Notes under the pieces: model-generated
What the model saw: the letters and a program-made list of their open reading frames with translations, nothing else
What the model was told of the DNA's origin: nothing
Databases searched by the model: none
Shown here: one piece after another, positions 5,964 to 20,120 of the stretch
Layout: each line of letters starts with the position of its first letter
How positions within the stretch are numbered: the stretch's first letter is position 1
Position numbers and translations under genes: made by a program
From: an uncultured Clostridia bacterium
GTDB taxonomy: Bacteria; Bacillota; Clostridia; Peptostreptococcales; Anaerovoracaceae
Assembly: GCA_944388495.1 (NCBI GenBank)
Contig: CALXIZ010000013.1
Span: 1 to 53,886 of the forward strand
Length of the DNA: 53,886 bases
Direction of reading: 5' to 3'

Positions 5964-7127
5964 TTATCCGTTTCGCTTCACACGGCCGGCGCGCAGATCC
6001 TCCACGGCTTCCGTCACGCCCTTTACAATCCGTTCCGCTTCTTCCTCCGTATTATAGCGTCCCAGAGAGATGCGCAGCGAACCGTGCGCCAGCTGATACG
6101 GCACGCCGGCTGCCAGCAGCACGTGGCTCGGATCCACCGAACCGGAAGTGCAGGCGGAACCGGAAGAAGCCGCGATGCCTTTCAGATCCAGCTCAAACAG
6201 CAGCGCCTCTCCGTCGATCTTCTCAAAGGACACATTCAGAATGCCCGGAAGGCGGTCTGCTCCGCCGCCGTTGAGATAAGCTCCCGGGATTCTGAGAATT
6301 CTGGCCTGTATTTCATCCCGCATGGCAGCCATGCGCTCCGCTTTTTCCTTCATCATTCCGCAGGATTCTTCCAGAGCCGCAGCCATGCCGGCGATACAGG
6401 CCACATTTTCCGTTCCGGACCTGTGTCCTCTCTCCTGCGCGCCGCCGTCCAGAAGATTATCCGGACAGGCGCCCTTACGGCAGTACAGCACGCCGGTTCC
6501 CTTCGGACCGTTAAACTTGTGAGCCGATATCGACAGCATATCGATGTTCTGTTCTTTTACATCGATCGGAAGAATGCCCGCCGCCTGTACGGCATCCGTA
6601 TGAAAGAGCACGCCCGCTTCGCGGCAGACCGCTCCGATCTCCGCTATCGGCTGTATCGTGCCGATTTCGTTGTTGGCATACATCACAGAGACGAGCGCGG
6701 TATCCGGCCGGATGGCATCTCTGACCGCCTCCGCAGAAATCCGTCCGCCGGCGCCGACCGGAAGAAGGGTCACTTCAAAGCCGTCCTCCCGCAGCGATTC
6801 CGCCGCATGAAGAATCGCATGATGCTCGATTGCAGTGGTGACGATATGTTTCTTTCCTTCCTTCGCAAGCCTGCGCGCCGTTCCCTTCAGCGCCCAGTTA
6901 TCCGACTCCGTCCCGCAGGAGGTAAAATACACATCTCCCGCAGGCGCATGAAGCGCGGACGCTATTTTTTTCCGCGCATCCTCTATAGCTCTGTGTGCTT
7001 CTCTTCCGATGGCATAGAGGGAAGACGGATTTCCGTAATGCTCTTTCAGATACGGCGTCATCGCCTCCAGCGCATATTCCGACAATCTCGTCGTCGCCGC
7101 ATTATCCGCATAAATAAATTCTTTCAT
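5964..7127 (-). CDS. nifS: Cysteine desulfurase, NifS/IscS family
   Basis: A 387-residue PLP enzyme that converts cysteine to alanine and hands persulfide sulfur to acceptors. Motifs: N-terminal YADNAATT, TSCGTESDNWAL, PLP lysine in SAHKFNGPKG (Lys about 204), catalytic cysteine in SSGSACTSGS (Cys about 326), and the closing HGSLRISLGRYNTEEE. The loop after the cysteine is IscS/NifS-like (class I). No iscU/nifU scaffold or thiI-like gene is adjacent. Instead the gene follows an XdhC-like gene by 47 nt, presumably in one transcript. That pairing points to sulfuration of the molybdenum cofactor of xanthine dehydrogenase-type enzymes, by analogy with XdhC-NifS4, although a general Fe-S role cannot be excluded. 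Confidence 0.93.
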   Translation of the reverse strand: MKEFIYADNAATTRLSEYALEAMTPYLKEHYGNPSSLYAIGREAHRAIEDARKKIASALHAPAGDVYFTSCGTESDNWALKGTARRLAKEGKKHIVTTAIEHHAILHAAESLREDGFEVTLLPVGAGGRISAEAVRDAIRPDTALVSVMYANNEIGTIQPIAEIGAVCREAGVLFHTDAVQAAGILPIDVKEQNIDMLSISAHKFNGPKGTGVLYCRKGACPDNLLDGGAQERGHRSGTENVACIAGMAAALEESCGMMKEKAERMAAMRDEIQARILRIPGAYLNGGGADRLPGILNVSFEKIDGEALLFELDLKGIAASSGSACTSGSVDPSHVLLAAGVPYQLAHGSLRISLGRYNTEEEAERIVKGVTEAVEDLRAGRVKRNG

Positions 7128-7174: not shown

Positions 7175-8215
7175 TCAGGCTTCCGTCCCGTCCTCGATCA
7201 GCGCATACATGACGCCGCCGCATACCATTCCGTCGGATTCCGCCACTTCACCCGTCATATCGATAAACACTGTCTTGTATTCTCCCGTACCGATGATATC
7301 GACCGCATCGCGGATCACCGCTCCTTCACTGCAGCCGCCGCCGATACTGCCGGTAACGCTTCCTCTTCTGTCCACCGCCATCTTGGCGCCGGCGCCGCGC
7401 GGCGTGGATCCCTTCGTCTGAATGACGGTCACGACAGCCTTCGGCTCGTGATTTTCCGCCAGGTACTCGATCATGTCCAGATCCAGATCAGATCCGTTCA
7501 CATACCGCGTATGTCCCGTGTTCTTTTCCGGCAGGCGCTTGTACGCGATAACCTCGGAGAGAATAGATACCGCGATTTCCTCCGGTGTCACAGCGCCGAT
7601 CTTCAGGCCGATCGGCGTCGCGATTCTCTCGATCTTATCCTTGTCAAAGCCTTCTTCCACGAGCATGTCCAGAAGGCCGCGCACTCTTCTTCTCGATCCG
7701 ATCATGCCCAGATAAGCCGGCTGTGCGCCCGGCAGAATCGCCCGCAGGCAGTCGGCATCGTGGCGGTGTCCTCTGGTGATGATGACGACAAAATCGTACG
7801 GCGTGATCTTCAGATCCGCGATGGCATTTTCAAAGGAATCGCAGATAACGCCTGCCGCCCACGGAAAACGTTCTTCATTGGCAAAGGCCGGTCTGTCGTC
7901 GACTACATAGACCTCAAATCCGCATTTTGCGGAAAATTCGCAGACGGGAAGCGCAATATGACCGCCTCCGAGCACGATCAGTCGTTCCTTTGGAAGGATC
8001 GGCTCGCTGATACGAAAATCATCACCTGTCTTTTCCGCTGTCGGGCTGATGACAGACAGCCCTTCATCCGACTGTTCTGCCGGCATGATCTTCAGCGAAC
8101 GCTTCAGGCCGTCTTCCATCCGTCCGCTTTCCCCGCAGATCTGTGTCTCGATGGATACACTCTCTCCCTCTTCAATCGCGTCGAGTATCTGAGCGTAAAT
8201 ATTTTTTTCTTCCAT
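7175..8215 (-). CDS. XdhC/CoxI-family protein, reordered domains
   Basis: A 346-residue protein of the XdhC/CoxI family, which binds molybdenum cofactor and assists its sulfuration and insertion into xanthine dehydrogenase-like hydroxylases. A Rossmann-like module comes first (LIVLGGGHIALPVCEF at about 80-95, then VVIITRGHRHDADCL and GMIGSRRR). The CoxI module follows at the C-terminal end (VVTVIQTKGSTPRGAGAKM, then GSIGGGCSEGAVI). In the usual XdhC layout the CoxI module is N-terminal. The first 50 residues look like a decayed copy of the CoxI start. A clear GGAGG lies 9 nt before the ATG and an extended -10 promoter about 55 nt upstream. No molybdoenzyme gene is in the window. Confidence 0.87.
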   Translation of the reverse strand: MEEKNIYAQILDAIEEGESVSIETQICGESGRMEDGLKRSLKIMPAEQSDEGLSVISPTAEKTGDDFRISEPILPKERLIVLGGGHIALPVCEFSAKCGFEVYVVDDRPAFANEERFPWAAGVICDSFENAIADLKITPYDFVVIITRGHRHDADCLRAILPGAQPAYLGMIGSRRRVRGLLDMLVEEGFDKDKIERIATPIGLKIGAVTPEEIAVSILSEVIAYKRLPEKNTGHTRYVNGSDLDLDMIEYLAENHEPKAVVTVIQTKGSTPRGAGAKMAVDRRGSVTGSIGGGCSEGAVIRDAVDIIGTGEYKTVFIDMTGEVAESDGMVCGGVMYALIEDGTEA

Positions 8216-12020: not shown

Positions 12021-13349
12021 TTATTTCCGCGGGAAACGGTGACCGAAACGTTTTTCATACTCTTCGATGAGTTCGTCACGAAAACGCGGATCGGCGATGC
12101 GGATCAGTTCTTTCGCTCTGTCCTCCAGAGATTTTCCCTTCAGCTTTGCGATGCCGAACTCTGTCACGACATAGCAGACATCCTCACGCGTCATGCTGAC
12201 TTCCGCTCCGTGAGCGATAAACGGCGTGATTTTCGACACGAGCTTTCCGGAAAAGTCGGGAACGCTGGCCGTCATGGCGATGATGCCCTTGCCTTTTCTG
12301 TCGCGCGACATCGTAGCGCCGCGGATCAGGCTAGGCTGGCCGCCCACGCCGCTGAACTGGTATTCACCGATGCTCGCCGACACGATCTGACCCATCAGAT
12401 CGACTCCCACGCTGGAATTGACGATACACATCTGAGACTGCTGTGCGATCATATACGGATGATTCACGTACTCCGCCGTGCGGAAAGATACCGCCGGATT
12501 GCGGTCGACAAAATCGTACAGGCGCTTCGTCCCCATGACGAAGGATACCGCCATGACTCCCGGATCCGTGGTACAGTACTTATTTGTGATGACGCCGTCT
12601 TCATAAAGCTGGACGACACCGTCGGAAAACATATCGGAAAAGACACCCAGATCTTTTTTGTCGCCCAGGAATCTGCACACAGCATCCGGGATCGAGCCGA
12701 TTCCCAGAGAGATCGTCGCTCCGTCCGGAATGAGAGATGCACAGTATTCGCCGATTGCCATCTCCGCATCTCCGATATGAGGAGGCGCAAGCTCATACAG
12801 ATCCTGATCCGCTTCCACAAAGCGGTCTATCCTGCTCACATGTATGAGCGTATCCCCGTAGGTAAACGGCAGATTTCTGTTTACCTGAGCGATGAGGATC
12901 TTCGCGTTGTCTACCGCGGGACGGGTATAATCCACGGATACACCGATAGACACATAGCCCTTTTCGTTCGGCGGAGACACCATCACGAGCATGACATCGT
13001 CGCGGAAAGTTCCGTCCTCAAAAAACTGTGTCGCCTGATAATAATGGTTTACCGTCACGTCTCCGTAACCGTCGCTTACACACTTTCTGGTAGACGGGCT
13101 CAGAAACCATCCGTCAAAATGAAAATTGTCCTTATACTGCGGCTGAGCATATTTTCCGGGACCCAGAGTCTGCATGTGATGAATATGTACACCGCGGTAA
13201 GCATCCGCATTGGCGACCATCGCATCGATCAGCACTGTGGGCTCCGCCGCACAGTGGCCGAAAACGACGTGATCTCCAGATTTGATGAGGCTTACCGCCT
13301 CCTCCGCTGTGCAGAGCCGTTCTCTGTATATCTTTTTCCAGTCTTCCAT
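12021..13349 (-). CDS. Acetyl-CoA hydrolase/CoA-transferase family protein with atypical active site
   Basis: 442 residues, full length for the family that includes 4-hydroxybutyrate CoA-transferase and butyryl-CoA:acetate CoA-transferase. These swap CoA between acyl groups through a glutamyl-CoA intermediate. The fold landmarks are present (FGHCAAEPTVLIDAMV, VSPPNEKGYVSIG, LGIGSIPDAV, VGVDLMGQIVS). The catalytic segment reads LGVFSDMFSDG, so position 239 is Asp where the partner gene at 15956 and family members have Glu. The glycine-rich motif is GGQPSLIRGA instead of GGQxDFxRGA. It may be a slower or differently specific transferase or a hydrolase. It lies 45 nt downstream of metY, probably co-transcribed. 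Confidence 0.85.
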   Translation of the reverse strand: MEDWKKIYRERLCTAEEAVSLIKSGDHVVFGHCAAEPTVLIDAMVANADAYRGVHIHHMQTLGPGKYAQPQYKDNFHFDGWFLSPSTRKCVSDGYGDVTVNHYYQATQFFEDGTFRDDVMLVMVSPPNEKGYVSIGVSVDYTRPAVDNAKILIAQVNRNLPFTYGDTLIHVSRIDRFVEADQDLYELAPPHIGDAEMAIGEYCASLIPDGATISLGIGSIPDAVCRFLGDKKDLGVFSDMFSDGVVQLYEDGVITNKYCTTDPGVMAVSFVMGTKRLYDFVDRNPAVSFRTAEYVNHPYMIAQQSQMCIVNSSVGVDLMGQIVSASIGEYQFSGVGGQPSLIRGATMSRDRKGKGIIAMTASVPDFSGKLVSKITPFIAHGAEVSMTREDVCYVVTEFGIAKLKGKSLEDRAKELIRIADPRFRDELIEEYEKRFGHRFPRK

Positions 13350-13394
13350 TTTCCGGTATCCTCCGTTCTTACGGGCCGCTTCCCGCGGCCGTGC

Positions 13395-14675
13395 TTATAT
13401 CCGTTCGAGTGCCTGACGGATATCCGCGATGATATCCTCCACGTACTCAAGTCCTACCGACAGACGTACGAGATCCGGCGATACGCCGGCTTCCTGCAGC
13501 TGAACGTCGCTGAGCTGCCTGTGCGTCGTGCTCGCCGGATGAAGCACACAGGTCCGCGCATCCGCCACGTGTGTGACGATAGCCGCCATTTTCAGGCTGT
13601 CCATAAAGACTGTCGCCGCTTCTCTTCCGCCTCTGACGCCGAAAGATATGACGCCGCATGTGCCGTCCGGCATATACTTCTGCGCCAGCGCGTGATTCCT
13701 GCTGCTTTCGAGTCCCGGATACTCCACCCAGGCTACCTTTTCGTGCCCCTCGAGATATTCGGCCACAGCCTGCGCATTCTCACAGTGGCGCTTCATGCGC
13801 AGAAACAGCGTCTCCAGACCTACATTCAGGAGAAACGCATTGTGAGGGGACGGAATCGAGCCGAGATCTCTCATGACCTGAGCGGTAGCTTTGGTGATGA
13901 AGGCCTTTTCTCCGAAGGCCTCTGCATAGACGAGTCCGTGATAGGATTCGTCCGGTTCCGTCATTCCCGGGAACTTGTCTCTGTGAGCCATCCAGTCAAA
14001 CTTTCCGGACTCGACGATCGCTCCGCCCACGCTGGTCGCGTGGCCGTCCATATACTTCGTGGTACTGTGCGTCACGATATCCGCACCCCATTCAAACGGA
14101 CGGCAGTTGACCGGCGTCGGAAACGTATTGTCCACGATGAAAGGAACGCCGTGGCGGTGAGCCGCCGCCGCAAATTTGTCGAAGTCAAGCACGATCATCG
14201 ACGGATTGGAGATGCTCTCGGCAAAGACACATCTCGTGTTTTCCTGAAAGGCATTTTCCAGTTCCTCTTCCGTGCAGTCCGGCTCCACGAAGGTCACTTC
14301 GATGCCCATCTTTCTCATCGTCACATTCAGCAGGTTGAACGTTCCTCCGTAAATTGCGGAGGAACTCACCACATGCTGTCCCGCGCTGCAGATATTGAAA
14401 ATCGCGAAGAAATTGGCCGCCTGGCCGGACGATGTGAGCATCGCAGCCGTTCCTCCCTCGAGCGCTGCAATCTTCGCCGCCACCGCATCATTCGTCGGAT
14501 TCTGAAGTCTCGTATAAAAATAGCCTTCCGCCTCCAGATCGAACAGCTTCGCCATTTCTTCACTGGTATCGTATTTATATGTCGTCGACTGATAAATCGG
14601 AAGAACGCGCGGCTCCCCGTTCTTCGGGGTGTAGCCCGCCTGTATGCAATTCGTATTGATGTGTTTTTTGTCCAT
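13395..14675 (-). CDS. metY: O-acetylhomoserine aminocarboxypropyltransferase (sulfhydrylase)
   Basis: A 426-residue PLP enzyme of the Cys/Met metabolism family. It makes homocysteine from O-acetylhomoserine and sulfide and may also act as a cysteine synthase. Visible: YQSTTYKYDTSEEMAKLF, YTRLQNPTNDAV, the phosphate-site SSGQAANFF, FVEPD, and the PLP lysine in HSTTKYMDGHA. The length and the GYFYTRLQNPT signature separate it from cystathionine lyases (about 380). A good promoter lies 50-80 nt upstream; the leader is too short for a SAM riboswitch or T-box. The CoA-transferase gene follows after 45 nt. Confidence 0.95.
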   Translation of the reverse strand: MDKKHINTNCIQAGYTPKNGEPRVLPIYQSTTYKYDTSEEMAKLFDLEAEGYFYTRLQNPTNDAVAAKIAALEGGTAAMLTSSGQAANFFAIFNICSAGQHVVSSSAIYGGTFNLLNVTMRKMGIEVTFVEPDCTEEELENAFQENTRCVFAESISNPSMIVLDFDKFAAAAHRHGVPFIVDNTFPTPVNCRPFEWGADIVTHSTTKYMDGHATSVGGAIVESGKFDWMAHRDKFPGMTEPDESYHGLVYAEAFGEKAFITKATAQVMRDLGSIPSPHNAFLLNVGLETLFLRMKRHCENAQAVAEYLEGHEKVAWVEYPGLESSRNHALAQKYMPDGTCGVISFGVRGGREAATVFMDSLKMAAIVTHVADARTCVLHPASTTHRQLSDVQLQEAGVSPDLVRLSVGLEYVEDIIADIRQALERI

Positions 14676-14725
14676 TGATACCTCCCAGCATATCGGCTGA
14701 TTTCCACAAAAGATTTATTTCCGAT

Positions 14726-14881: not shown

Positions 14882-15940
14882 TTATGCTTCGGCCACAAAC
14901 AGCTCCAGCGCCGTCTGCGGATCCGCTGCGCCTGTCTTGATATTCCGCTCAGCTTCGTATGCCTTCATCAGCGTGCGGCGTATCCCGTCCGCACCGCAGG
15001 AAGACGCGGGCCCCAGAGCCTTTCTGATACGATACTCATGTATGCCGAGAATGGATTTCATCTGCGGCAGAGTCATCCCTTCCGCCCGCATCTCGCTTAC
15101 GGCGAGAATCGTCTCATACTGCGCGCAGATCAGTCCCAGAAGCTTAAAGATATTTTCTCCGTATTCCATGAGCGAGTGAAGCATGCGCAGAGCCTCTCCT
15201 CTGCGTCCCGACGTCAGGGCATCGCTGAATGCGAAAACGTCACGCGAGATATTGCCGGCCACCGCATTTTCGATATCCTCCGCGGTGATCCGTTCTCCGC
15301 TGAGCGCCGTCACCTTGGCCGCATCGTTGACCAGATTATCCAGTGTGTAATCGGAGTCTCTGTCATAATATCCGGACAGATCGATGAACAATCCCGCCAG
15401 ATCCGGATCAAACGCCTTTTTTGCGGCGCGGAAACGCTTTGCGAGAAACGAGCGCAGAAGCGGCGCGGAAAGCCGGTCGAAATCATACGCGGAACCGTAT
15501 TTTACAGCCGCCTTATACAGCTTTTTCCTCTTATCCGGTGAATCGCATACCAGTATGAGGACAGAGCTTTCAGGAAATTCCTTCATATATTCTGCCAGCC
15601 GGTCTCCCCGTCCCTCCGTTTCGTCAAAATCCTCCACCAGAACGACTTTTTTCTCCGAAAGCATGGGGACTGTTTCACAGGCGCCGATGATTTCCTCTGT
15701 CTCCGCAGCCGTGCCGTCGATCTTCACGAAATCGAAAAACTCCGATTCCGGCCGGACATACGTCTCCTTTACTCTGCCGCAGGCCCAGCGTATCAGATAT
15801 CTCTCCCTGCCGTAAAAGAGCAGGATGTGCTTCAGGCTGCCCTCCGAAAGCTCCGACTGTATCCGCTTATAGCTGTGAGGCTCCTGTTTTTTTGCTTTTG
15901 AATAATATCCCGTCATGTTTGCCTCCGGCTTTCCTTTCAT
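14882..15940 (-). CDS. holA: DNA polymerase III subunit delta
   Basis: A 352-residue clamp-loader subunit that opens the beta sliding clamp. It shows the HolA pattern: HILLFYGRERYLIRWA near the N-terminus, LSEKKVVLVEDFDE, SSVLILVCDSPDKRKKLYK, and the C-terminal collar domain with ISRDVFAFSDAL, GENIFKLLGLICAQYE and MKSILGIHEYRIRKAL. In related bacteria holA follows comEC. Here it follows a CoA-transferase gene by 15 nt and must share its transcript. The start at 15940 has a weak ribosome site (GAAAGG); an internal ATG nine codons in is an alternative. Confidence 0.93.
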   Translation of the reverse strand: MKGKPEANMTGYYSKAKKQEPHSYKRIQSELSEGSLKHILLFYGRERYLIRWACGRVKETYVRPESEFFDFVKIDGTAAETEEIIGACETVPMLSEKKVVLVEDFDETEGRGDRLAEYMKEFPESSVLILVCDSPDKRKKLYKAAVKYGSAYDFDRLSAPLLRSFLAKRFRAAKKAFDPDLAGLFIDLSGYYDRDSDYTLDNLVNDAAKVTALSGERITAEDIENAVAGNISRDVFAFSDALTSGRRGEALRMLHSLMEYGENIFKLLGLICAQYETILAVSEMRAEGMTLPQMKSILGIHEYRIRKALGPASSCGADGIRRTLMKAYEAERNIKTGAADPQTALELFVAEA

Positions 15941-15955
15941 GCGTTAACGCGATGA

Positions 15956-17275
15956 TTAATAGGGTACTTTAAAGCGTCTCTCGTATTCCGCGATCAGCTC
16001 CGGACGGAAATCAGGATGCGCGATTTCGATCAGGCTGCGCGCTCTCTCTTTCAGCGTCTTTCCGCGGACATTGGCGATGCCGTATTCCGTCACAAAATAT
16101 TCGGCGTCCTGACGCGGGACTGTCACCGACGATCCGTCCGTGATAAAAGGCTTGATTCTTGAAGTGCGCACACCGTTCTTTTCGTGAACCGATGTCATGG
16201 CGATAATCGCCTTGCCCTTTCTGTCGACGGAAATCGCCGCACCCCGTATGAAGTCCAGCTGACCGCCGGCTCCGCTGATATTGCGCAGTCCGTGAGAGCT
16301 GGAAACAACCTGGCCCATCAGATCCACTTCAATACAGGTGTTGATGGAGACAAGCTTTGAACACTTTCCGATGGTAAACGGACCGTTCGTATAGGCCGCC
16401 CGGCGCAGCGTAATCGCACGGTTATTGTCCGCAAAATCATACAGCTCCTGCGTTCCCATCAGAAAGACGGCTACCATCGTTCTTTTTTCACGGGATTTTT
16501 CCAGATTCGTGATCGCTCCCGCCTTGTACAGATCCATGATTCCGTCGGAAATCAGCTCTGAATGGACGCCGAGGTTTTTCTTTCCCTTCAGCGCATCACA
16601 GACAGCATCCGGAATCGAGCCGATACCGATCTGGATCGTGCTTCCGTCCTCGACCAGCGAAGCGCAGTTTTCTCCGATCTTTCTCTCCACGTCGGTGATC
16701 TCCGTACGCGGAAAAACGGGAAGAGGATCGTCATATTCCACGATTCTGTCCGCTTCGCTGACATGGATGACGGTATCCAGACTGAAATTTCTCGGCATAT
16801 TGCGGTTGACCTGAAGGATCACCCGGTCCGCCGTTTCGATGCCCTCTCTGACAAAGTCAGCCATGAGGCCGCAGCTGCAGTATCCGTGCTCATCCGGCGG
16901 AGACGCCTGAAACATGAATACGTTCACCGGGATATCCCCGTCCTTGAGCAGATGGCCGATTTCGTAATAATAGCACGGATAGACAGATGCCCGTCCCTCG
17001 TTTACCGCTTTCCTCGTGGAAGCGGAGACGAACAGCGTCTCAAAGATGAAATTGTCTTTATATTTTTCATCGGTATACTCTTCTCCTCCCGAACTCAGGC
17101 CGTGCATGATCCGGACCCCGTGAAAATCCGAAGCGTTGCGCACCAGCGCCCGGATCAGTTCCTCCGGCCGCGCCGCAACACCTCCCACGAGAACGCGTTC
17201 CCCGTCTCTGATCAGACGGACCGCCTCGTCAGCAGTACAGAGTTTTTCTCTGTATATAGTTTTCCAGTCACTCAT
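15956..17275 (-). CDS. Acyl-CoA:acetate CoA-transferase family protein
   Basis: 439 residues from the ATG at 17275, chosen because GGGGG precedes it by 8 nt; a TTG six codons upstream is possible but has no ribosome site. Same family as the gene at 12021, but with the canonical active site: LGVHSELISDG with Glu about 240 as the probable acyl acceptor, and GAGGQLDFIRGA. Members are butyryl-CoA:acetate, 4-hydroxybutyrate or succinyl-type CoA-transferases of fermenting anaerobes. The substrate cannot be decided from the sequence. It sits between comEC and holA with its own extended -10 promoter. Confidence 0.9.
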   Translation of the reverse strand: MSDWKTIYREKLCTADEAVRLIRDGERVLVGGVAARPEELIRALVRNASDFHGVRIMHGLSSGGEEYTDEKYKDNFIFETLFVSASTRKAVNEGRASVYPCYYYEIGHLLKDGDIPVNVFMFQASPPDEHGYCSCGLMADFVREGIETADRVILQVNRNMPRNFSLDTVIHVSEADRIVEYDDPLPVFPRTEITDVERKIGENCASLVEDGSTIQIGIGSIPDAVCDALKGKKNLGVHSELISDGIMDLYKAGAITNLEKSREKRTMVAVFLMGTQELYDFADNNRAITLRRAAYTNGPFTIGKCSKLVSINTCIEVDLMGQVVSSSHGLRNISGAGGQLDFIRGAAISVDRKGKAIIAMTSVHEKNGVRTSRIKPFITDGSSVTVPRQDAEYFVTEYGIANVRGKTLKERARSLIEIAHPDFRPELIAEYERRFKVPY

Positions 17276-17507: not shown

Positions 17508-20120
17508 TTATTTCAGTACATCAACAGAGAGATTTTCTCCGAACCGGAAGAGAATCGCTCCGTGAAGATCGTTGCGGAATATCTCCGCGCCGGCGTCCGA
17601 AAGTCTCTGTATCGTCTCCTGAGCGGGATGCCCGTAATAGTTGCGCCCCACCTGAATGACGGCGGCTTTCGGAGCAGCTGCGGACAGAAAAGCCTCGCAG
17701 GAAGAATATCTGCTGCCGTGATGAGCCACCTTCAGAATATCGGAACGCATCGTCACCGGCCCTTCTGCCGCGTATTGCTCCGCCAGCTCTTTTTCAAGAG
17801 GTTCTCCGATGTCGCCCGTAAACAGCACGCTCGTTTTGCGGTATTCCACTCTGACGATCAGACTCAGCCTGTTTTCATCCTCACTGTCCTGCAGAAGCCG
17901 CCTGTAAGTCTCTTCATCCGCCCGGTCAGGCTTCAGAACGGTCAGCTTCGCTCCGCCGACCGTCAGCACATCTCCCGCCGCCGCAAAGATCATATTTTCC
18001 CGCGGGATTCCGAATTCCGCCGCGATGCTTTCCGCCTGCGGCTCGTATACTGCCGAAAGCAGCAGCTTTTTCACTTTTACGCCCTCCGTCATCGTCCGCA
18101 GACCTCCGCAGTGATCCTGATGCAGATGACTGATGACAGCCAGATCGATATCCGATACTCCGCCGGCCAGAAAATACGGAATCAGCGTCTTTTTTCCCAC
18201 GTCGTAAGTGTCGCTTCCTCCGCTGTCAAACATCAGATCTGTTCCTCCGTCCGCTTTCAGGTGCGCACAGTCTCCCTGCCCGACATCGACGAAAATCATA
18301 TCCGCCCTCATCATATCCTGCTGCAGAAAGATTCCGGCGGTCAGACAGACCAGAGCACCCGCCGCCAGAATGACTGCCGCTTTCTTTGCCGATTTTCTGA
18401 CAATCTCCCGGCCCGCTTCGCTGCACAGGAAAAACAAAATAAAATAGTACAGAAAAAATACGGCGTCAGGCGGCGAGGCCATATAACGATACGACAGCGG
18501 CGTATCGGCAAACAGAGCATTCAGATCTGTCAGAGCCGACAGCAGCATTTCCTCCGTACGGCACACAGCAGCGAGCAGAAATTCCGCAGGATCGCCGTCT
18601 GCGGCGGAAACGGGAATCCACTCTGCCAGAACGGACAGAGGTATCAGCGCCGTTCCCGCCGGCACGATCAGATCCGACAGAGCGATAGCCGGAATATTCA
18701 GAAAGAAAGCTCCTATCGAAATATAATGAAAGTGGTAGAGACTCAGAGGCACCATTCCCAGCTGCATGAGGACAGTTCCCTGAACCTGATCCCGGCAGGC
18801 TGTATACAGTCTGCGCTTCCGCCCGTCCGCATGTTTTTCCGGCAGGATTTCCGCGTGTTTTTTCTTATCCTCCGGCAGTTCTGCGTGCCGGTATCCCCCG
18901 CCCTTCGGCATGACGATGCCGAGTGTGAGAACAGCGAGAAAGGACAGCTGAAAGCCGGCTGCAAAGAGAACGTCCGGACGGTATATCATCATGCAGAAGG
19001 CACAGACGGAGATGCTCGACAGAAAATCATATCTGCGAAAAGTTATTTTCGCCGCGATATGAATGTAAATCATGATGACAGCCCTTACGACAGACGGAGA
19101 AAAGCCGCACATCGCGGCATACATGGCTAAAATGACGGCGATCGGCAGATTGCCTGCCAGGCCGGACGGATTGCGGAACGCGACATTCAGTATCCCGTAA
19201 ATCATGGAAATATGCATCCCGGAAACGGCCAGCAGATGAGCGATTCCGTTTTTCTGAAAATCCTCATACTCCGCTTCATCGAGATCATTTTTGTCTCCGA
19301 ACATGATGCCCGACAGCAGAGCCGCCGCTTCCGCATCCATGTGACTCTCTGTCTGCGAGAGAAAGACGGACTTCAGCGCCGCCAGACGCTCCAGAATATA
19401 AAAAAGGCCCGCCGGTTTTTCTCCGCACTGCAGCTTGGACCACTCGGCATACATCGTCATGCGTATTCCTCTGGTTCTCAGATACTGTGCATAATCGAAG
19501 CCTTTCGGATTGCCCGCCTCCGCAGGGCGGTACACCGCTCCTGTCACCGTCACATACCATCCCGTAAGGCTGCGGATCTTCTCCGCTTCATTCCTGTCCG
19601 CTCCTTCATCTCCGCCGCCTCCGCTCTGACCGCTTCCGCTGTTTCGCACGGTCACCTGCAGCTTTTCTCTGCGGGTCCGCTTTTTTCCGTCCTCCCCGGG
19701 CGCCGGAGATTCAGGAACCGCATCGATGATGAGAACAGCGCCGTCCTCCTGCGGTGAAGCGGACAGAACACGCCCGCTCACCGTCACCGTTTCACCGTCC
19801 ATTCCGTCAAAAACGGAGATATACCCGTCAGCCAGCCCGTACCTGAGTCCTCCTGTCAGAAAGCACAATACGAACAGAAAAACCGCCAGACGCCGTCCCG
19901 CCGACTCTCTGCCGCGCCGGAATATCTCTTCCTCCCGGCTGTGATCGTCATCTCCGGAATTATATTTTATTTCCTTATTTTCATTTTTTTTACATCTTAG
20001 AGCAAAACAGAACAGCAGAAATCCCGCCGTCATCACGGCGAAGCCTTCCGCTCCGGCCGCTTTCCGGACGGCGATCCCTGCTGTCAGTCCCGCTGCACAT
20101 ACAGCTGCAGGTCGTCTCAT
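17508..20120 (-). CDS. comEC: ComEC/Rec2 DNA-uptake channel protein
   Basis: An 870-residue membrane protein that forms the channel for single-stranded DNA entry during transformation. Order of parts: N-terminal hydrophobic region and extracytoplasmic DUF4131-like/OB segment (to about 250), the Competence multi-helix domain (GIMFGDKNDLDEAEYEDF, then HLLAVSGMHISMIYGIL, about 270-560), and a C-terminal metallo-beta-lactamase-like domain (MIFVDVGQGDCAHL, then SHLHQDHCGGL with the HxHxDH metal motif, then HHGSRYSSCEAF). The length is at the upper end of the family. No comEA is next to it. The ATG is preceded only by AAAAAAGG, a poor ribosome site. Confidence 0.95.
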   Translation of the reverse strand: MRRPAAVCAAGLTAGIAVRKAAGAEGFAVMTAGFLLFCFALRCKKNENKEIKYNSGDDDHSREEEIFRRGRESAGRRLAVFLFVLCFLTGGLRYGLADGYISVFDGMDGETVTVSGRVLSASPQEDGAVLIIDAVPESPAPGEDGKKRTRREKLQVTVRNSGSGQSGGGGDEGADRNEAEKIRSLTGWYVTVTGAVYRPAEAGNPKGFDYAQYLRTRGIRMTMYAEWSKLQCGEKPAGLFYILERLAALKSVFLSQTESHMDAEAAALLSGIMFGDKNDLDEAEYEDFQKNGIAHLLAVSGMHISMIYGILNVAFRNPSGLAGNLPIAVILAMYAAMCGFSPSVVRAVIMIYIHIAAKITFRRYDFLSSISVCAFCMMIYRPDVLFAAGFQLSFLAVLTLGIVMPKGGGYRHAELPEDKKKHAEILPEKHADGRKRRLYTACRDQVQGTVLMQLGMVPLSLYHFHYISIGAFFLNIPAIALSDLIVPAGTALIPLSVLAEWIPVSAADGDPAEFLLAAVCRTEEMLLSALTDLNALFADTPLSYRYMASPPDAVFFLYYFILFFLCSEAGREIVRKSAKKAAVILAAGALVCLTAGIFLQQDMMRADMIFVDVGQGDCAHLKADGGTDLMFDSGGSDTYDVGKKTLIPYFLAGGVSDIDLAVISHLHQDHCGGLRTMTEGVKVKKLLLSAVYEPQAESIAAEFGIPRENMIFAAAGDVLTVGGAKLTVLKPDRADEETYRRLLQDSEDENRLSLIVRVEYRKTSVLFTGDIGEPLEKELAEQYAAEGPVTMRSDILKVAHHGSRYSSCEAFLSAAAPKAAVIQVGRNYYGHPAQETIQRLSDAGAEIFRNDLHGAILFRFGENLSVDVLK

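Follow-up and report, generated by a model that had tools for sequence, protein, structure and literature searches.

In the 53,886-nucleotide stretch of DNA analysed here (the window), which comes from an uncultured Clostridia bacterium, the gene at 12021-13349 encodes a homologue of the 4-hydroxybutyrate (4HB) CoA-transferase of Clostridium aminobutyricum (PDB 3gk7) in which aspartate takes the place of the catalytic glutamate. This replacement and the change of the hallmark GGQxDFxRGA to GGQPSLIRGA had been pointed out in an original prediction made from the letters alone. Beyond it, we found that five neighbouring residues have changed along with the Glu in a clade of seven proteins, here called D-type, and that a nearby Glu-bearing paralogue (P0002-type) carries complementary losses. 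We tentatively propose that the D-type proteins could be natural short-chain acyl-CoA hydrolases, an offshoot of the 4-hydroxybutyrate/butyrate CoA-transferases in which transfer would have been traded for hydrolysis, a reading inferred from the comparisons below that we regard as possible rather than probable.

The features referred to in the text are the following.

12021..13349, minus strand, D-type CoA-transferase-like protein P0001, 442 aa (open reading frame, Pfam, match to 3gk7, AlphaFold2 model)
12321..12344, minus strand, codons 336-343, GGQPSLIR where relatives have GGQ(V/L)D(F/Y)xR; Gly337 (AarC Gly388, oxyanion hole) kept
12633..12635, minus strand, codon GAT of Asp239, in the column of the catalytic Glu (3gk7 Glu238, AarC Glu294)
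12708..12710, minus strand, codon TCT of Ser214, replacing the Gln of the QXGhG gate loop (AarC Gln267); Gln in 100/100 canonical-type, Ser in 7/7 D-type proteins
13254..13256, minus strand, codon of His32, equivalent to His31 of the 4-hydroxybutyrate pocket of 3gk7; kept in 7/7 D-type proteins, Gly in 6/6 full-length P0002-type proteins
13395..14675, minus strand, O-acetylhomoserine sulfhydrylase-like PLP enzyme (TIGR01326, 600.8 bits, above cut-off); at this place in 2/7 D-type genomes
14882..15940, minus strand, holA, DNA polymerase III delta (TIGR01128, 234.2 bits), between the two CoA-transferase genes
15956..17275, minus strand, Glu-bearing paralogue (P0002-type), 439 aa from ATG, co-oriented, upstream member of the pair
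17508..20120, minus strand, comEC/rec2 (TIGR00361), upstream of the pair

The D-type gene and its product

The reading frame at 12021-13349 starts with ATG, which is preceded 10 bases upstream by the ribosome-binding-site-like GGAGG, and encodes 442 aa followed by a stop. Its product matches Pfam AcetylCoA_hydro (PF02550) and AcetylCoA_hyd_C (PF13336), both above cut-off, and thereby has the two-domain acetyl-CoA hydrolase/transferase architecture of family I at full length; its best solved relative in a phmmer search is 3gk7 (E 3.4e-161). Structure prediction, one of the checks originally suggested, gave an AlphaFold2 model with a mean pLDDT of 91.9 and a pTM of 0.89 from an alignment of 33 window and locus proteins, a subset of those available, and this model superimposes on 3gk7 over 441 residues with a Z of 57.3, an rmsd of 1.6 and 55% identity; residues 326-334, which adjoin the GGQPSL motif, have a pLDDT below 50. 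By fold and descent, the D-type protein is a full-length homologue of 3gk7 and belongs to family I, 4HB type. Placement by NCBIfam names was dropped, as the D-type matches lie far below the cut-offs: for butyryl-CoA:acetate CoA-transferase (TIGR03948, equivalog cut-off 674.8 bits) the D-type protein scores 262.8 bits, and the copy of the 3gk7 protein itself in genome G216 (L047) also stays below it, at 330.7 bits.

The loss of a catalytic residue could by itself suggest a decaying gene or an assembly artefact, a reading that is contradicted by the data and to which we give practically no weight, given the open frame that is intact in 7/7 D-type genomes, the GGAGG and the confident fold. Because the identical change recurs in 7 genomes and dN/dS is 0.021, a sequencing error or a pseudogene was rejected. 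This dN/dS, measured against a 97%-identical congener by the Nei-Gojobori method, compares with 0.035 for the P0002-type gene, 0.022 for the sulfhydrylase gene and 0.080 for holA, all rough figures since dS lies between 0.8 and 1.2; the D-type gene is under strong purifying selection. Long antisense frames over real genes can mislead simple ORF finders at this locus, as does the plus-strand frame at 12039-14678 (879 aa), and in L059 an antisense open frame masks holA.

A nucleophile changed together with its neighbours

When the protein was aligned with 3gk7 by phmmer, Asp239 of LGVFSDMFSDG was matched with the Glu of LGIHSEMISDG, and GGQPSLIRGA with GGQVDFVRGA, in agreement with the original prediction on both points. 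Six substitutions, E239D, Q214S, H237F, V339P, D340S and F341L, are common to 7/7 D-type proteins, and GGQPSL and SxGhG accordingly stand in all seven where family I has GGQxD(F/Y) and QXGhG, the Gly residues and Gln338 being retained. For comparison we used 100 canonical-type homologues, nearly all of them uncharacterised proteins, which have E239, Q214, H237 and D340 in 100/100; this set includes 60 added homologues that were hand-picked among the matches listed so as to cover different families of the order (in 2/60 a stop occurs at one of the two final positions), and these agree at the four positions in 60/60. Three distant proteins with Glu in 3/3 (L003, L004, L025) were left out of the set. 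Asp at column 239 occurs in 0/100 of the canonical-type homologues outside the D-type clade, and among the 57 columns that are at least 98% invariant in the 100 rows, seven (107, 213, 214, 237, 239, 259 and 340) differ in 7/7 D-type proteins. Arg343 is further replaced by Leu in 4/7.

The remainder of the site is conserved. His32, Glu36, Gly216, Gly218, Asn296, Gly336, Gly337, Gln338 and Glu397 are kept in 7/7 D-type proteins, among them Gly337 and Asn296, the equivalents of the oxyanion-hole residues Gly388 and Asn347 of AarC, and Glu397, the equivalent of AarC Glu435. With AarC numbering counted through the alignment (L005, of Cat1 type, was used solely for this mapping), residues 214, 239, 337 and 341 correspond to AarC Gln267, Glu294, Gly388 and Phe392, and Asn296 to Asn347; passages of PMC4876117 place the first four around the thioester end of a bound CoA analogue and describe Gly388 and Asn347 as oxyanion-hole elements. 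In the C. aminobutyricum enzyme, Ile216 and Gln337 are reported to bond CoA and to drive the gate loop (excerpts of PMC11659651), and the substrate's 4-hydroxyl group is proposed to interact with His31 (excerpts of PMC3180442). Polarising and CoA-binding residues are thus retained, and the nucleophile has changed in concert with its neighbours. Judged by its residues, the D-type protein falls outside the CoA-transferases by the defining catalytic residue, which is Asp239 in 7/7 rather than the Glu of family I (3gk7 Glu238, AarC Glu294), and by motif.

Two findings that could have undone the original prediction, a catalytic Glu located elsewhere and Asp being common among characterised active members, were looked for in part. 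As to the first, there is no fixed Glu that would be an obvious substitute for the lost one, but new acidic residues, Glu389 and Asp420 in 7/7 and Glu329 in 6/7 D-type proteins, might still take its role. As to the second, Asp is absent from the 100 mostly uncharacterised homologues, and the solved 3gk7, 3eh7 and 3d3u have Glu in 3/3, so that the claim holds for the members covered here. Overall, the earlier reading is partly supported.

Distribution and phylogeny

When genome contigs were scanned, 20 relatives emerged, and 5 of them, at 65-97% identity, share the Asp and GGQPSL. With a D-type profile at E 1e-190, D-type genes were found in 7/349 genomes of the family; these 7 genomes represent three genera and encode 7 distinct proteins, with a more divergent member in G432. 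In sampled, non-exhaustive draws at E 1e-180, of 391 genomes from the class and 398 from the phylum, the only D-type gene was each time that of the window's own genome. The 97%-identical match is labelled Candidatus Alangreenwoodia gallinarii, Clostridia incertae sedis, and the window's organism is presumably, by name, its congener (G379, same genus).

The family tree with motif mapping that had been proposed as a check was built from 57 rows, and it bore out the distinctness of the altered proteins: the 7 D-type proteins, with their six fixed substitutions, form one clade (100/100). This clade stands beside 40 canonical proteins, namely 3gk7 and the remaining distinct proteins of the collected set, with a support of 94/68, which is not strong; the 7 P0002-type proteins form a separate group (100/100) that lies outside both others if the 94/68 fork is right. 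Between genera, D-type proteins are 63-68% identical and P0002-type paralogues 55-59%, the D-type thus being the more conserved of the two.

The Glu-bearing paralogue and a possible partnership

The paralogue at 15956-17275 is 49% identical to the D-type protein and has LGVHSELISDG with Glu240, as had been predicted, and GGQLDFIRGA. E239, H237, D340, F341 and R343 are kept in 6/6 full-length P0002-type members (L069, which is partial, was left out of these counts), while column 214 holds Gln in 5/6 and Glu in 1/6, and both H32G and E36R are found in 6/6. On the residue level, the two paralogues therefore carry complementary losses, the D-type in the catalytic half and the P0002-type in the pocket residues His32 and Glu36. 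Lacking this near-invariant His and Glu of the acyl pocket, which are Gly and Arg instead, the P0002-type may have a new specificity of its own.

The order P0002-type, holA, D-type on one strand is found in 6/7 D-type genomes, and the contig of the seventh (G510) breaks off within holA. The identity of holA is confirmed in the window by a family model and in six other loci by Pfam delta-subunit domains. In the six genomes with the complete order, this replication gene is sandwiched by two CoA-transferase genes. The gene comEC precedes the pair in the window (TIGR00361) and in G494 (Pfam Competence), as well as, by reading only, in L060, L062 and L064; in G432 a penicillin-binding protein gene takes its place, with no comEC between the pair and this neighbour. 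A sulfhydrylase gene separating holA from the D-type gene is confined to the window and its congener, that is, to the window's genus, and a functional link between the D-type protein and O-acetylhomoserine sulfhydrylase was dropped as a general feature because it is a neighbour in just 2/7; in another genus, two loci (L008, L010) have cysK-like genes, identified by reading, downstream.

These observations could also be explained if the D-type protein and the Glu-bearing paralogue formed a heteromer in which the former is a non-catalytic or modulating subunit, the two copies having degenerated in complementary places, an explanation that we find rather unlikely and nevertheless worth keeping in mind. 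The constant order and orientation of the two genes would fit such a partnership (in two of the six genomes with the sulfhydrylase gene also in between), as would the fact that in the only P0002-type genome where no D-type gene was seen (G494) the P0002-type gene is cut by the contig edge, so that its D-type status cannot be judged. The retention of H32 and E36 in one protein (7/7) and of E239, H237, D340, F341 and R343 in the other (6/6) points in the same direction, and position 111, which is acidic in 6/7 D-type proteins and Arg/Lys in 95/100 canonical rows, lies in or near the stretch corresponding, by approximate mapping, to the dimer interface of the N-domain described for RipA residues 99-123. 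However, the pair shares one ancestral locus and its adjacency may reflect plain inheritance; the catalytic half of the P0002-type is not fully canonical, given the Glu at 214 in 1/6; and the D-type is more conserved than its would-be partner. Moreover, the active site of a relative lies at the interface of the N- and C-terminal domains (excerpts of PMC3180442), which we read as lying within a monomer, and mixing of subunits alone would then not restore one site. The idea of an intact catalytic half and an intact pocket half re-forming one heterodimer site is weakened by this domain-interface position. An obligate heteromer in which the P0002-type would give the Glu/GGQxDF half and the D-type the His32/Glu36 half plus a water-activating Asp, coupling CoA transfer with hydrolysis of the CoA ester, appears quite improbable to us.

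A possible switch from transfer to hydrolysis

If the D-type protein is a hydrolase, as we tentatively favour, acyl-CoA would still bind between the two domains, and the shorter Asp239 would fall short of the thioester and form no anhydride. Instead, Asp239 might act as a general base on a water molecule, for which Gln214-to-Ser and Phe341-to-Leu would provide space, and the products would be free CoA and the acid. The kept His32 suggests that the substrate has a small, perhaps hydroxylated, acyl chain. The statement of the original prediction that shortening Glu to Asp cripples transfer is in line with the CtfB E46D variant of T. melanesiensis: according to passages of PMC12400318, this variant lost transferase activity and acquired the ability to hydrolyse acetoacetyl-CoA, a reaction in which the Asp is proposed to serve as general base; the same passages state that covalent adducts are no longer formed upon Glu-to-Asp exchange in family I CtfAB enzymes, and cite Mack and Buckel 1997 for glutaconate CoA-transferase. 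D-type proteins show the feature of these engineered hydrolases, namely Asp at the catalytic column with intact oxyanion-hole residues, and it is this Glu shortening, as in CtfAB E46D, together with the oxyanion-hole residues and the smaller neighbours, that ranks hydrolysis as the most likely of the activities considered.

Several points speak against a hydrolase. The published E-to-D hydrolases are single mutants of AB-type enzymes, whereas the D-type has five more neighbouring changes, and the excerpts of PMC12400318 describe T. melanesiensis E46D as no more than partially active. Arg343 is lost in 4/7 D-type proteins, the new acidic residues could substitute for Asp239, and the segment beside GGQPSL is the poorly predicted one (326-334). 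A partner role, too, would fit the way in which the D-type is constantly paired with a Glu-bearing paralogue, as well as the losses by which the two complement each other.

Alternatively, the D-type protein could still be a CoA-transferase with Asp239 as covalent nucleophile, the reshaped pocket admitting the substrate, probably with a new specificity. An Asp acts as nucleophile in the active site of family III CoA-transferases. The fold, the oxyanion-hole residues Gly337 and Asn296 and the CoA-contact Gln338 are all retained, and side chains next to the Glu shrank as it did (Q214S, F341L), so that the thioester could come closer. Against this stand the absence of Asp from the 100 canonical-type relatives and the reported lack of covalent adducts in the exchanged CtfAB enzymes, and we therefore regard an Asp nucleophile as unlikely.

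Transfer might, finally, proceed without a covalent enzyme adduct, directly or intramolecularly, or with a relocated carboxylate, for which E389, D420 and E329 would be candidates. ThnP, a Cat1-like protein of naphthalene degradation with Gly for Glu, is reported as an intramolecular CoA-transferase (excerpts of PMC11659651), and for MdcA, which has a related fold and no active-site acidic residue, direct transfer has been proposed (excerpts of PMC5534430). Unlike these two, the D-type keeps an acidic residue at the site itself, and we consider this route very unlikely.

Comparison with known enzymes

The hydrolase reading may be set against what is known of related proteins. With the C. aminobutyricum enzyme (3gk7/3qdq), the D-type shares the fold, His31, the Asn and Gly oxyanion elements, Gln337 and the second Glu; it differs in having Asp, Ser, GVF(S/T)D and GGQPSL(I/N/T)(R/L)G in place of Glu238, the gate Gln, GIHSE and GGQVDFVRG, and in that D-type genomes lack a PF11794 match. 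The T. melanesiensis CtfAB E46D variant and the Glu-to-Asp variant of Acidaminococcus fermentans glutaconate CoA-transferase, as far as described in the passages cited, involve the same one-carbon shortening of the catalytic residue, but they are single laboratory mutants of AB-type enzymes, whereas the D-type is a natural clade of fused, 4HB-type proteins with co-substituted neighbours, known from sequence. RipA E249D (PDB 4n8l) has, according to its PDB title, the catalytic Glu changed to Asp within the same subfamily, and it too is a laboratory mutant, of a fused relative. ThnP occurs naturally, resembles family I and lacks the catalytic Glu, but it has Gly instead of Asp and another substrate, lineage and operon. 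The P0002-type paralogue, in turn, is a neighbour of the same family that is inherited together with the D-type, and differs by retaining Glu and GGQLDF while lacking His32 and Glu36. In the open-access literature searched (titles, starts of abstracts and opened passages) no natural Asp member of the 4HB-type subfamily was reported, a weak negative. Glu-less relatives are already known.

Pathway context and implications

The domain PF11794 (HpaB_N), which we take to represent 4-hydroxybutyryl-CoA dehydratase, the companion expected for an AbfT enzyme, had a match in 0/8 genomes with D-type or P0002-type genes, which are 57-93% complete. The control genome G216, which encodes the 3gk7 protein, has 3 PF11794 matches, one of them about 1 kb from the CoA-transferase gene; this genome belongs to the same family as the window, and one match lies at G216:C1:442567-443379. 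The absence of PF11794 from the eight genomes makes the classical 4-hydroxybutyrate pathway, and with it a role in 4-aminobutyrate fermentation, unlikely, and in the surroundings of the D-type genes nothing points to an acyl-CoA that needs hydrolysis.

The D-type may represent a natural version of the laboratory Glu-to-Asp switch. If so, evolution would have used the same route from transferase to hydrolase as the laboratory, and the companion residues that make it work would be exposed, with consequences for where the line between hydrolases and transferases is drawn in this family and for the engineering of selective acyl-CoA hydrolases. If these proteins are annotated as butyrate or 4-hydroxybutyrate CoA-transferase, this fermentation step could be attributed to these gut bacteria in error.

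Two further observations concern the same genome. A third member of the family, with GGANDF and SEMFTPSM motifs, is encoded on contig C12 (L003 1486-2778), where it adjoins enoyl-CoA hydratase-like and permease-like genes, recognised by reading without a model. In the window itself, the genes at 7175-8215 and 5964-7127 encode an XdhC/CoxI-family protein beside a class-V aminotransferase.
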